Of a DNA stretch of 64,000 nucleotides, positions 8,586 to 19,874 are shown piece by piece (the stretch's first letter is position 1; every line of letters starts with the position of its first letter). The notes beneath the pieces were generated by a model. That model saw only the letters and a program-made list of their open reading frames with translations. It did not search any database and had not been told where the DNA came from. A program made the position numbers and the translations under genes. The DNA is from Brachyspira hampsonii (GTDB lineage: Bacteria > Spirochaetota > Brachyspiria > Brachyspirales > Brachyspiraceae). The DNA lies in the NCBI RefSeq assembly GCF_002214805.1, contig NZ_CP019914.1, positions 2,294,001 to 2,358,000 of the forward strand, written 5' to 3'.

Positions 8586-10982
8586 TTAATTATTTAAACT
8601 AACAGGTATAGAAACAAAAAAAGTTGTTATCTTAAATTGTCCATTAACACTTTTTATCACCATACTTCCGCCATGAGCTTCTACTATTCTTTTGGAAATG
8701 GCAAGTCCTATACCCACTCCATGACTTTTTGTTGTAAAGAATGGAGTAAATACTTTTTCAGCTAATTCCGGTTCTATATATGAATTAGTATTTTCCACTA
8801 TTATATCTATCATAGATTCCCTGTAAGCATTATCATCAAATATAACACTGATAATCGAATCTTCATCTCCGTTATTTATGGCATCTATAGCATTAATTAT
8901 CAGATTGGATATAACTTCATTCATTCTGTCATAATCCCATTTTACAACATCTTCTTTAGTGATTTTAGCAGCATAGAATTTAATATTTTTTCCGCTTTTT
9001 TTAATATATTCTTTTGCTAAAATAGTGAGGTACTTAATCATATCATCTATTTTTATATTTTCTACTTCCAGATTAATACTTTTAGCAAATGATAAATTCC
9101 TTCTCAAATAATTTTCTAAATTTTCTACCTCATTAGCTATTATCTGAGCATAGTTTTTAATATTTTCTTCTTTACTAACCTTAACAAGCCTATTAGCAAA
9201 TCCAGCAATAGGTACTATAAAGTTTCTAAGATTATGAGCCATAGAAGAACTCATCTCACCTATTATAGCTAAACTTTTTAAATCTAATAATGTTTTTTCT
9301 GCCGCTTTTAAGGCATTGTTATTTTTTTCTATTTCATTATAAAGATATGAATACTCTAAAGCTACCGCTGCCTGTCTTCCGAACATTTTTAAATAGTCTA
9401 AATCATCTTCCGGTATAGGCTTTCCATTATAAGAATTATCAACTACAACCATACCTATACAATTTGTTGCATTCATTATAGGTATTATAGCGAAAGGACA
9501 GTATCCGAATATATCTGTATATTTTTTTATTTGTTCTACTTCCTGATTATCTGTATTTGTTATATTGATGCTGTTCTTATTATTAAATACATCAAAGAAT
9601 AATTTGCAGTTTTCATTATTCGGTATAACAGTATTTAAGAATTTCTGATTTAAATCCCAAGAATCTTCCATGCTTCTTCTATCAAAAGAAAGCATTAATT
9701 TTTCCCTAAGGGCATATTTATCCAGCTTTTGCATATTACTCCATATCATACCGGCTTCCTGAGCATTTGTAGGAGCAACGCACATTCTTCCTCTAAATAC
9801 ATTAAATTCTTTATCATAAAGAAAAGCAAATGCCCTGTTAAAAGCAAATACATCTCCTATTGTTGCTATTGTCAGAAGTAAAAATAATATGTCTTCTGTT
9901 TTTGAACGCTCCAATAGAATATTGCTTATATCATATAATGTATTCAAACGAGACATGTGTTTCATGTTTTTTTCATTTGCTTTGCTTAATTCTACAATGT
10001 TATAATGTTCAGAAATTCTGCTCGCTATATTAGCTAGAAGCGGATTAAATAAATTAAGGTCATTTATATCAAAATCTCCAAGCGGATTAACAGCATCAGG
10101 TATTTTATCTATAACAACTATATAGCCTATGCAATTATTTTTTACAGGTATTCTATTGAATAGTACGGACCTGTTTATAATACCTTTAAATCTTTCATAA
10201 TATTTATTGTTTGCTGCATTATTTATATAGAATATGCCTTTATCCCAAAATTCTACTATATAAATATTATCATCAAACATTGAATAATCAAAATTATCCG
10301 GAAACCCATAACTAGATCTCGTATATAGTTCATTATTTTCGTTTCTAAGTCTTATAAATGCTTTATTAGCAGTAAAAATATTTGCAATATCATTTGCTAA
10401 TTGATTTAAATTATTTTCAAAATCATCAACTTCGCTTAATTTTAAGTATAATTCCCTAAGCAGTTTTAATTGTTTATCTCTTTCCTTATATGTTACGCTT
10501 TGAAGCACATTATTAGCATATACAGCAAAGTGTCCTATCACATTTTTTATTTCGTTAACTATAGAGTTATAGAATTCTATTTTATTTTCTTTATTTCTAA
10601 AAACTACAACTCCTATAGGATTGGCATAGAAAAATATAGGAAGTACAAACATAGATGAATAATTTGAAAATACTTCCATATTTGTATGATTAATATTTTC
10701 ACCTATAAAAACTTTCTGATCATATAATACATCTTTACAATGATTGGCGGATATTGGAAAATCAACTTTACATACATAGTATCTGTCAATTCCATATACG
10801 CCTCTAAGTATAAGATAATCGCCTTTAGGAAAATACACTTCTCCGCAATCAAAATTGTAATACCGGCAGGTTTTTTCTAAGAATAAATCAACAACTTGGT
10901 CTATTTCATTGGTGTTCTCTGCAAAAAGCAGTCCCATAGATAAATCCGAAAAAAAACTGTCTATAGATTTTCTCTCTTCCAT
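8586..10982 (-). CDS. Multi-GAF sensor histidine kinase (degenerate catalytic motifs)
   Basis: A 798-residue cytoplasmic protein without membrane helices. Three GAF-like sensory regions are seen (about 5-165, 185-330, 345-545), then a short coiled coil, a HisKA-like helix with the phospho-acceptor candidate in SMAHNLRN (about 581), and a C-terminal ATPase domain with N-box NEVISNLIINAIDAI (about 692) and G2 box SHGVGIGLAISKR (about 751). Two oddities: the acidic residue normally following the His is Asn, and the G1 box D-x-G-x-G reads N-T-N-S-Y. No response regulator is adjacent on this strand, so it is an orphan. It may be a weak kinase, a phosphatase or a pseudokinase. AGGAAG precedes the ATG. 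Confidence 0.85.
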   Translation of the reverse strand: MEERKSIDSFFSDLSMGLLFAENTNEIDQVVDLFLEKTCRYYNFDCGEVYFPKGDYLILRGVYGIDRYYVCKVDFPISANHCKDVLYDQKVFIGENINHTNMEVFSNYSSMFVLPIFFYANPIGVVVFRNKENKIEFYNSIVNEIKNVIGHFAVYANNVLQSVTYKERDKQLKLLRELYLKLSEVDDFENNLNQLANDIANIFTANKAFIRLRNENNELYTRSSYGFPDNFDYSMFDDNIYIVEFWDKGIFYINNAANNKYYERFKGIINRSVLFNRIPVKNNCIGYIVVIDKIPDAVNPLGDFDINDLNLFNPLLANIASRISEHYNIVELSKANEKNMKHMSRLNTLYDISNILLERSKTEDILFLLLTIATIGDVFAFNRAFAFLYDKEFNVFRGRMCVAPTNAQEAGMIWSNMQKLDKYALREKLMLSFDRRSMEDSWDLNQKFLNTVIPNNENCKLFFDVFNNKNSINITNTDNQEVEQIKKYTDIFGYCPFAIIPIMNATNCIGMVVVDNSYNGKPIPEDDLDYLKMFGRQAAVALEYSYLYNEIEKNNNALKAAEKTLLDLKSLAIIGEMSSSMAHNLRNFIVPIAGFANRLVKVSKEENIKNYAQIIANEVENLENYLRRNLSFAKSINLEVENIKIDDMIKYLTILAKEYIKKSGKNIKFYAAKITKEDVVKWDYDRMNEVISNLIINAIDAINNGDEDSIISVIFDDNAYRESMIDIIVENTNSYIEPELAEKVFTPFFTTKSHGVGIGLAISKRIVEAHGGSMVIKSVNGQFKITTFFVSIPVSLNN

Positions 10983-12677: not shown

Positions 12678-13385
12678 ATGAGAGTATTAATTTATGATTC
12701 ATCTTTACAGATAAGAGATAGTCTTATCAGTATTCTTATTACAGCAGGATATGAAGTTGTTGCTGTGAAGGATAAAAATAATATTTTGAGCATGTTTGGT
12801 AAACTTCCTTTTTCTATTGCTATTATAGAAGTTGGAGAAAATGATGCTGATATGGAGAGTATACTTGAAAAAATATATTTAGATGACAGATATCATGGTG
12901 TGCATGTTATAGTTCATGTTGCAGATCCTAGCAGGGAATTTTTTACTAAGATGATGAGAATAGGGGTTTCAGGTTTTTTATTAAAGCCTTTTAATGAAAA
13001 AGATTTTTTGAATAGATTTAATGTTTTAATAGATAAGGCAGGAGTTAAGCCTAAAAAACTAAAACATATAGTAATAAACAATTTGGATAATTTTAAATTG
13101 GTATTTAGACATGACGGAGTAAGACAGATTCTTCATGGTATGATAATAGAAATGTCTCCGGTAGGATTAAAATTTATTATGCCGCCTGAAGAAGCTAGTA
13201 TAGAAGTAGGGCATGTTATAAAGAATGCTTCTATGTCTATTAGTTCTTATAAAATAAGTTTTTCTATTAATATATTGGAAAAGATAGGAAATGAATATAT
13301 TGGTGAATTTGAGGATTTATCTGTATTTAATGCTAAATTGATATGTAAATTTATATATGATAAATACATAGAAAAATTAAAGTGA
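12678..13385 (+). CDS. Receiver-like domain fused to PilZ domain
   Basis: A 235-residue protein. Residues 1-120 have a response-regulator fold pattern, but key positions are changed: the acid pocket is Y-D-S-S instead of D-D, and the phospho-acceptor Asp position is Glu51 (AIIEVGE). The switch Lys is kept (Lys103, FLLKPF). Residues about 125-235 look like a PilZ c-di-GMP-binding domain, with FRHDGVRQ and an E-M-S-P-V-G turn standing in for the D/N-x-S-x-x-G motif. Glu in place of Asp can mimic constant phosphorylation, so the receiver is probably a protein-interaction module rather than a phosphorylation switch. Co-transcribed with thiD, 28 bases away. Confidence 0.75.
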   Translation: MRVLIYDSSLQIRDSLISILITAGYEVVAVKDKNNILSMFGKLPFSIAIIEVGENDADMESILEKIYLDDRYHGVHVIVHVADPSREFFTKMMRIGVSGFLLKPFNEKDFLNRFNVLIDKAGVKPKKLKHIVINNLDNFKLVFRHDGVRQILHGMIIEMSPVGLKFIMPPEEASIEVGHVIKNASMSISSYKISFSINILEKIGNEYIGEFEDLSVFNAKLICKFIYDKYIEKLK

Positions 13386-17648: not shown

Positions 17649-17669
17649 TGTAAATTGGAAGATTTTAAT

Positions 17670-18962
17670 ATGCAGACAGTAACAACTAAACAAAATATAT
17701 TAATAATAGATGATGAAGAGGATATACTGACTACTTGTCAGGATATTTTAGAAGATGAAGGCTATGGAGTAGATATAGCTAAAAATTATAAAGAAGCAGA
17801 GGCTATACTTAATAGTAAGAAAGTAAATTTAGTATTTTTAGATGTATGGCTTCCCGATGTAGACGGTTTGGATATACTTTCTAATATAAAAGAAAAATAC
17901 CCTAATACCATTGTAATAATGATGAGCGGACATGCCGGAGTTGAAACAGCAGTTAGGGCTACTAAAATGGGGGCTTATGACTTTTTAGAAAAGCCTATTA
18001 GCATATCAAAGCTGCTTTCAAGCTGTGAAGATGTATTCAAAGAGAGTATAGATAAAGCGGAAGCATCAGTAAATGAGGAAAATTGCTCTAATAAACCTTG
18101 CAGTAATGTAGGATATAAGGTTAAACAGAGAACTATAGCTAAAAGTATTGTTGTAAGCGGTTTCGCATTAATGGAAGGAAGAAAAACTGCATTAACATTG
18201 GTTCCTGCAGAGGTTAATACAGGTATAGTTTTTATTGATATTAATACAAATACTCATATAAAATTATCACATAATAATATACTTTCTAAAGATAAATCCG
18301 GGGCGGTTAATTCCACAGCATTAGTATCAGGAAACAGATATATAAAAACTACAGAGCATTTCTTGGCGGCACTTCATATGATGGGTATTACTAATTTAAT
18401 AGTAAAATGTGACGGAGAAGTACCTAATGTAGACGGTTCTGCTTTAGTATTTTGTGATGCTTTAAAAGAGGCTGGTTTTGTAGAGCAGGATGATTATATA
18501 GAGCCTATAGTTATAGATACTACCTTAACTTATGGAAATGTTAATGATAATGAAACTTATATAATACTTTCTCCTTATGACGGGCTTGAAGTAAGTCTTC
18601 GTATAGATTTTGCAGGATCTATAGGAGTACAGGAATATACATATAAATTTGAAAATTTTGATCAGTTTACTGATGAGATTGGAAGAGCAAGATCATTTAA
18701 TACTATAGATAATATTGATTATGCCCAAAAAATGGGAATGGCTGGAAGCGGTATGATAGGAAGTCATATACTTCTTTGCGACGGAAAAGTAATAAATACT
18801 AAACTTCATTTCGATAATGAGTTTGTAAGACATAAAATTTTGGATATAATTGGAGATTTATATATTTTGGGCAGACCTATAAGAGGCAAAGTTACTGCTA
18901 ATAAGTCTTCTCATTCTTTCAATCATTCCGTTGTACATGATCTTGCAAATAGATATTTATGA
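17670..18962 (+). CDS. lpxC: Response-regulator receiver fused to LpxC deacetylase
   Basis: A 430-residue fusion. Residues 1-125 are an intact NtrX-like receiver: acid pair Asp14-Asp15, phospho-acceptor Asp58 (FLDVWLPD), Ser86 and Lys108 (LEKP). After a Cys/Ser/Asn linker, residues about 152-430 are UDP-3-O-acyl-GlcNAc deacetylase, the committed step of lipid A synthesis. Zinc and catalytic residues are kept: Glu229-His230 (TTEHF), His388 and Asp392 (FVRHKILDIIGD), His415 (KSSHS). The Thr usually found in RARTF is Ser342, and the N-terminal G-L-H motif is altered. The start is chosen by GGAAG eight bases before the ATG. A sigma factor and hemW follow on the same strand. Phosphorylation-controlled lipid A synthesis is inferred. 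Confidence 0.9.
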   Translation: MQTVTTKQNILIIDDEEDILTTCQDILEDEGYGVDIAKNYKEAEAILNSKKVNLVFLDVWLPDVDGLDILSNIKEKYPNTIVIMMSGHAGVETAVRATKMGAYDFLEKPISISKLLSSCEDVFKESIDKAEASVNEENCSNKPCSNVGYKVKQRTIAKSIVVSGFALMEGRKTALTLVPAEVNTGIVFIDINTNTHIKLSHNNILSKDKSGAVNSTALVSGNRYIKTTEHFLAALHMMGITNLIVKCDGEVPNVDGSALVFCDALKEAGFVEQDDYIEPIVIDTTLTYGNVNDNETYIILSPYDGLEVSLRIDFAGSIGVQEYTYKFENFDQFTDEIGRARSFNTIDNIDYAQKMGMAGSGMIGSHILLCDGKVINTKLHFDNEFVRHKILDIIGDLYILGRPIRGKVTANKSSHSFNHSVVHDLANRYL

Positions 18963-19019: not shown

Positions 19020-19874
19020 ATGTCAGAAAGCAGGTTAAGAACTAATACGGAAGAACAGAATAATATATCATTATATTTTGCAGATGCTAAAAAAGAGAAA
19101 CTTTTAACTAGAGAAGAAGAGATAGAACTCACTAAAAGATTAAAAGAAGGAGATGCTGAAGCAAGATCAAAGCTAATTAGAAGCAATTTAAGATTTGTTA
19201 TTACAATAGCAAAACAGTATAAAAACAGCGGACTTCTGCTTGAAGATTTAATAAGCGAAGGCAATATGGGGCTTATAATAGCAGCTGATAGATTTGATCC
19301 TGATAAAGGGTATCATTTTATATCTTATGCGGTTTATTGGATAAGGCAAAGTATTTTAAGGGCTATAAATGAGAAATCAAGACTTATAAGGCTTCCTTTA
19401 AATAAAGCTATGGATTTGGTTGATTTGGAACGCACTGTACATCAATACTATTATAAAAGCGGGTATACTCCTGATGTTAATGAACTTGCCGCAATATTAA
19501 ATAAAGATCCTAATGATATACTTCATATTATGTCTATGAGTACAGAACATATTTCCCTTGAAGGCGAATATAATTATGACGGTATGAAGGATAGGCTTAT
19601 TGATACTATAGAGGATAAAACTTCTGCAAATGTTGAAGAAACTGCTATAAACAAAGAGCTTATGGAGGAATTAAAAACCGCTATTGAAAGTTTATCAGAT
19701 ATAGAAAAACAGATTATTAATGCCAGATATGGAATAGATCAGGAGAGAAAAACACTTAAAGAAGTAGGGGAAATGTTTTCTTTTACTAAAGAGCGTATAA
19801 GACAGATAGAGAAAAAAGCATTGAGAAAAATGCATTCTCAGAAATATAGTTCATTAAAAGATTTCTTAAAATAA
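19020..19874 (+). CDS. RNA polymerase sigma-70 family factor
   Basis: A 284-residue group 2/3-type sigma factor. Region 1.2 (NNISLYFADAKKEKLLTREE), region 2 (LIRSNLRFVITIAKQYKN, then DLISEGNMGLIIAADRFDPD and YAVYWIRQSILRAI for -10 recognition), region 3 (SRLIRLPLNKAMDLVDLE) and region 4 (LKEVGEMFSFTKERIRQIEK for -35 recognition) are all present. It lacks the long acidic region 1.1 of a main RpoD, so it is an alternative, RpoS/SigB-like factor. It lies 57 bases behind the receiver-LpxC gene and 4 bases before hemW, so it is probably in the same operon, which hints at an envelope or stress role. Confidence 0.85.
   Translation: MSESRLRTNTEEQNNISLYFADAKKEKLLTREEEIELTKRLKEGDAEARSKLIRSNLRFVITIAKQYKNSGLLLEDLISEGNMGLIIAADRFDPDKGYHFISYAVYWIRQSILRAINEKSRLIRLPLNKAMDLVDLERTVHQYYYKSGYTPDVNELAAILNKDPNDILHIMSMSTEHISLEGEYNYDGMKDRLIDTIEDKTSANVEETAINKELMEELKTAIESLSDIEKQIINARYGIDQERKTLKEVGEMFSFTKERIRQIEKKALRKMHSQKYSSLKDFLK

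Follow-up and report, generated by a model that had tools for sequence, protein, structure and literature searches.

Fusion of an NtrX-type receiver with LpxC in Brachyspira and related spirochaetes, and an orphan NtrY as its likely kinase

The receiver-LpxC gene and its neighbours

The stretch of the Brachyspira hampsonii genome analyzed here (64,000 nucleotides, hereafter the window) contains at 17670..18962 of the forward strand a single uninterrupted frame of 430 codons plus stop, which begins with ATG and ends with TGA (18960-18962) and is preceded, 7 nt 5' of the ATG, by a likely ribosome-binding site, GGAAGA (17657..17662, +). Pfam and NCBIfam matches divide the product into a receiver domain (residues 10-117; 17697..18020, +), a linker (residues 118-152; 18021..18125, +), and an LpxC deacetylase domain (residues 153-426; 18126..18947, +). 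The receiver match (Response_reg, PF00072, E = 4.8e-30) spans positions 1-108 of the 111 in the profile and the domain is complete, with D14, D15, D58, S86, and K108 all in place; the codon of the phospho-acceptor Asp58 occupies 17841-17843 (+). The LpxC match (PF03331, E = 4.1e-69) covers profile positions 1-267 of 268 with 233.5 bits against a cut-off of 27, and TIGR00325 (lpxC) gives 196.8 bits, above its cut-off of 187.25. Similarly, the solved LpxC of P. aeruginosa (5u39, E = 1e-39) aligns along the entire C-terminal part, and alignment to the solved LpxC chains maps E229/H230, H388/K389/D392, and H415 onto the catalytic and metal positions. The match of both domains together with these residues is far beyond chance, and by all sequence tests made the fused protein is a member of the LpxC family. 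An earlier, sequence-only reading of the window had described an intact receiver and an intact LpxC in one frame, and the open frame, Pfam, and NCBIfam all confirm it.

No lpxC besides the fused gene is present in the genome, a single contig of 3.19 Mb. The genus is known to make LOS (PMC2650404), and deacetylase activity would be expected of the only LpxC of such an organism. The profile of the LpxC-FabZ fusion (PRK13188) scores 169.8 bits against a cut-off of 465, with the match confined to the LpxC half and no FabZ dehydratase at the C-terminus. The protein lacks a C-terminal tail, since the chain stops four residues beyond the LpxC domain.

Examination of the linker region for ATG, GTG, and TTG revealed no start codon between residues 112 and 167 of the window's gene; the next in-frame start after the receiver is M168, which lies within the LpxC domain. 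Production of a separate LpxC from an internal start is thus ruled out for this gene, and LpxC is expected to be made with the receiver attached. Isolated start-like codons do occur in the linkers of some orthologues, where their position is not consistent. In an AlphaFold model of the fused protein (mean pLDDT 62.7) the receiver is folded and the linker is disordered, with pLDDT below 50 at residues 127-152; the LpxC part of the model is only moderate, because just 17 close sequences were usable.

A gene for an RpoS/RpoD-like sigma factor (19020..19874, +; NCBIfam RpoS, 227.9 bits, under the cut-off) begins 57 bases downstream of the fusion and is followed by hemW. Brachyspira and its sister genus (g2) retain this gene order (fusion, sigma factor, hemW), with the exception of some genomes in which genes are inserted or hemW has moved. 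The sigma factor is possibly co-transcribed with the fusion, and such an operon may link envelope control and the sigma factor. About 7 kb from the fusion, the reverse strand encodes at 8586..10982 a soluble histidine kinase with a GAF domain, to which no regulator gene is linked. Its GAF and HATPase matches exceed the Pfam cut-offs and its HisKA match falls short; it was also matched in NCBIfam.

Distribution and conservation of the fusion

The fused frame is present in all 26 Brachyspira genomes (in G003 it is interrupted by a contig end), the close relatives being at 85-97% identity, and in 31 of 31 genomes examined from the class; besides Brachyspira, these represent two other genera of its family and two of a second family. 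Each of these 31 genomes has a single LpxC, and no second, unfused copy was found among them. An artefact of assembly or frame is ruled out, as the frame is open and all genomes of the class have it in fused form.

Of the 393 Spirochaetota genomes sampled, 110 possess LpxC. Outside the class the fusion was found in three of them (G040, G052, and G062), belonging to two spirochaete families. In the draft assembly G070 the receiver and LpxC lie in two frames that overlap where the sequence has undetermined bases; this gene most likely is fused too, since the split of the frame coincides with those bases. It is the single split case met in a search of the orthologues for a stop or start between the two parts, and the gene is fused throughout the class. 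In the remaining spirochaetes with LpxC the open frame is mostly 275-345 codons long, and no receiver match was obtained in the unfused LpxC frames fetched from them.

The LpxC domains of the fused proteins are monophyletic with support 100/99, and by this tree the fusion arose once. Judged from its distribution it is old and conserved.

Multiple alignment of 33 fused proteins revealed that D14, D15, D58, S86, and K108 of the receiver, as well as E229, H230, H388, K389, D392, and H415 of LpxC, are invariant in all of them; all ten residues that the sequence-only reading had picked out are among these. The invariance holds although the identity of the receiver to that of the window's protein drops to 35-40% in the most distant fused proteins. 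The earlier proposal that LpxC is the only output of the receiver is likewise supported, the architecture being conserved across three lineages. Ala at position 89, found in all 33 aligned proteins, was considered as a signature of the fused clade and ruled out by the Gly at this position in the fusion of G694, described below.

Among Brachyspira, the median dN/dS is 0.088 for the receiver and 0.049 for LpxC, compared with 0.73 for linker residues 121-147. These ratios indicate that both domains are maintained and that the linker is nearly free to change; the receiver, by this measure, is under strong purifying selection and the linker is not. They also bear on the possibility that the receiver is a structural hitch-hiker, which stabilizes or folds LpxC and has lost its signalling role. 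An unconserved linker and the lack of a kinase gene linked to the fusion would fit such a module, but the acceptor Asp would be dispensable in it, and all five residues of the phosphorylation site remain invariant across the 33 proteins, even where receiver identity is as low as 35%, with the receiver under strong purifying selection. We consider this explanation very improbable.

Beyond Spirochaetota, one phylum was sampled, via a record titled Myxococcales, and the listed open frames of at least 400 aa were followed up. One genome of 379 in that phylum, G694, has two LpxC matches and carries a receiver-LpxC fusion of the same clade (L232:440-1843; G694:C121), on a contig with 69% GC. It could represent transfer, an older origin of the fusion, or a contaminant contig.

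Origin of the receiver

Among named regulators, the window's receiver is matched best by the NtrX profile (113.6 bits, versus 77.7 for NtrC). Receivers of NtrX proteins encoded next to NtrY match it at 83-110 bits, and those of NtrC type at 50-66 bits. In a phylogenetic tree of receivers, which is based on about 120 columns and has moderate supports, the fused receivers form one clade (87/73) adjoining the spirochaete NtrX receivers adjacent to NtrY (95/59), and are separate from NtrC-type and other receivers, including those of AAA+ regulators that were taken from fused genomes. The affinity to NtrX seen in this tree agrees with the profile scores, and the receiver most likely derives from NtrX.

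The fused protein itself is not an NtrX: the sigma-54 AAA+ and Fis-type DNA-binding domains that define these regulators are absent by Pfam, with LpxC in their place, and only the receiver is of NtrX type. Nor was an NtrX-type AAA+ regulator found among those fetched from the fused genomes, all of which fall in NtrC-type or other clades; by tree placement, retention of a full-length NtrX is ruled out within this set.

The orphan NtrY

The kinases and regulators of the genome were inventoried by family searches, which yielded 14 receivers above the Pfam cut-off and few histidine kinases. One of the latter is an NtrY-type membrane kinase (G000:C1:2185347-2187134) with HisKA and HATPase over the cut-offs and HAMP just under; it stays below every NCBIfam equivalog cut-off and fits the H-box pattern W[RK]..A...AHEIKNPL.PI, as WREAAIKVAHEIKNPLMPI. 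No response regulator gene adjoins it, the only receiver-like neighbour being a convergent pseudo-receiver gene.

An NtrY-type kinase is present in 16 of 16 fused genomes checked, and in none of these is an NtrX adjacent to it. In contrast, 14 of the 17 scorable unfused LpxC-bearing spirochaetes with NtrY have NtrX immediately next to it (the unfused set also included one genome cut by a contig end and five without a clear NtrY). The other three, G032, G064, and G077, have NtrY without adjacent NtrX, so that an orphan NtrY is not unique to the fused genomes. Moreover, the fused genomes descend from one event, and their co-occurrence of fusion and orphan kinase therefore counts as one coherent change, not sixteen. 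The kinase tree unites the NtrYs from both sets of genomes, fused and unfused (98/94), and keeps them apart from 23 other kinases. None of the genomes seen has NtrY linked to the fusion, and in the distant fused genomes no kinase gene lies beside the fusion.

The small receiver-like gene convergent with ntrY (G000:C1:2187135-2187500, reverse strand; L092:2636-3001) is retained next to ntrY in both Brachyspira and the sister genus, and is seen also at L107:3267-3614, L108:3273-3677, and L109:1079-1489. Its acceptor Asp apparently is replaced by Asn (FNPN, FNSN). The pseudo-receiver may modulate NtrY.

Another protein of unusual architecture joins a NUDIX domain and a histidine kinase core in 516 residues (G000:C1:1371880-1373427; L093:1881-3428) and has no linked regulator. 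As the GAF kinase shares this lack of a linked regulator and its gene lies near the fusion, either of the two could be the partner of a receiver that works as a phospho-switch on LpxC. However, the receiver is of NtrX type, and NtrY is the very kinase that misses its NtrX partner in the fused genomes; in addition, the regions fetched around the fusion in other genomes did not reveal the gene of the GAF kinase. A kinase other than NtrY thus seems to us distinctly unlikely.

The genome also encodes single-domain receivers without linked kinases, which makes a branched network possible. In such a network the flow could be reversed, with LpxC reporting the state of lipid A precursors to a receiver that serves as a phosphate sink for NtrY and so shifts another NtrY target. 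None of the AAA+ regulators sampled from fused genomes was an NtrX-type transcription factor that could take such a signal, and we regard reversed flow as extremely improbable.

Possible control of LpxC by phosphorylation

The above analysis favours the earlier suggestion that lipid A synthesis is tuned by a kinase directly at its committed step, the points in its favour being the invariant phospho-site, purifying selection on the receiver, and the orphan NtrY. In the scheme that we propose, the NtrX receiver in the ancestor of the fused lineages would have shed its AAA+ and DNA-binding parts and become the N-terminal part of the lpxC product, and NtrY would have been retained without its usual neighbour. 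NtrY most likely phosphorylates Asp58; phosphorylation would change the output face of the receiver and alter LpxC through the flexible tether, possibly by docking of the receiver on the deacetylase, by pairing of the deacetylase, or by holding LpxC at the membrane. The signal sensed by NtrY would then set lipid A flux directly, without a transcription step. Taken as a whole (an NtrX receiver joined to LpxC, NtrY kept as its kinase, and phosphorylation of Asp58 altering LpxC), we consider this reading fairly probable, and phosphorylation of the fused LpxC probably gives the cell a direct means of control. The interpretation offered by the sequence-only reading appears well founded and, as a whole, partly supported.

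Published effects of NtrYX on lpxC in alphaproteobacteria add weight to an NtrY-to-LpxC switch. In R. sphaeroides, loss of NtrYX raises the lpxC transcript 8.8-fold and the LPS content with it, and an NtrX site at lpxC was not found (PMC7240162), so that the effect is probably indirect. In Caulobacter, NtrYX also inhibits lpxC transcription (review PMC12444477). The fusion may have made a transcriptional influence direct.

How a signal would cross between the domains is not hinted at by the unconserved linker. Its fast evolution and disorder speak against a rigid, lever-like connection and favour docking on a tether, pairing, or retention at the membrane kinase. The same properties suit tethering more than rigid allostery, which is one of the points in favour of a role of the receiver in setting the amount or location of LpxC and not its activity: phosphorylation would mark the protein for proteolysis, shield it from proteolysis, or tie it to the membrane kinase. 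The receiver would then replace the FtsH degron found at the C-terminus of E. coli LpxC, for which the tailless fused protein has no equivalent; other bacteria are known to regulate LpxC through its turnover or its placement at the membrane (PMC12444477). On the other hand, a degradation signal was not identified in the fused protein, and many non-enterobacterial LpxCs that lack the C-terminal degron lack a receiver as well (PMC12444477). We hold control of amount or location instead of activity to be unlikely, and prefer NtrY-dependent phosphorylation acting on LpxC itself.

Comparison with known systems

The fused protein shares with standard LpxC the full catalytic domain and all zinc and catalytic residues. 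Standard LpxC occurs alone or fused to FabZ (PMC3087551), whereas that of Brachyspira has an N-terminal receiver and a linker and no C-terminal tail. LpxC-FabZ (PRK13188) resembles it in joining LpxC to another domain in one chain, but its partner is a C-terminal, next-door metabolic enzyme in place of an N-terminal signalling domain. Enterobacterial control of LpxC by FtsH, LapB, and YejM (PMC12444477) is post-translational and concerns the same step as the control proposed here; it proceeds by proteolysis via a C-terminal degron (PMC12444477), while in Brachyspira it would use an attached receiver. The alphaproteobacterial NtrYX-lpxC connection (PMC7240162, PMC12444477) involves the same two-component system and the same enzyme, acting there via transcript level, in contrast to the receiver on the enzyme here.

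With the NtrYX system of other bacteria the fused genomes have in common the type of receiver and the presence of an NtrY-type kinase. NtrX has an AAA+/DNA-binding output and an adjacent kinase gene; the fused protein has a metabolic enzyme as output, and ntrY is not adjacent. Its N-terminal receiver and C-terminal enzyme follow the plan of CheB methylesterase, receiver-PP2C, and receiver-GGDEF proteins. Since the receiver is complete, the fused protein has the make-up of a response regulator, and by make-up it is an enzyme-output response regulator, a known kind. The known members have outputs that serve signalling or chemotaxis; that of the fused protein is a committed step of envelope lipid synthesis. 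To our knowledge, a lipid A biosynthetic enzyme is new as the output of a response regulator. No description of a receiver-LpxC fusion was found among the open-access papers that were searched, and the domain databases will hold the architecture. The new elements are the probable NtrX origin of the receiver, the orphan NtrY as its likely kinase, and the depth of conservation.

LpxC catalyzes the committed step of lipid A synthesis, the one most regulated, and is a target of antibiotics; its control outside enterobacteria is largely open, and a receiver on the enzyme offers a directly testable control point with a named kinase. It would also be a rare case of one two-component system tied to one enzyme by transcription in one phylum and by attachment in another, which bears on the rewiring of regulatory circuits.

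Two minor observations concern other proteins. In the window, the gene at 12678-13385 (+) encodes a protein of 235 residues. Its N-terminal receiver is divergent and narrowly misses the cut-off (29.7 bits), and its C-terminal half, which is unassigned, resembles PilZ on inspection by eye. Finally, weak and divergent LpxC homologues (E values from 1e-10 to 1e-18; G146:C28, G175:C30, G186:C51, G192:C9, and G198:C122) occur in one spirochaete family that lacks the fusion; several of its genomes carry them, for the most part as a second copy, and they are possibly deacetylases with another substrate.
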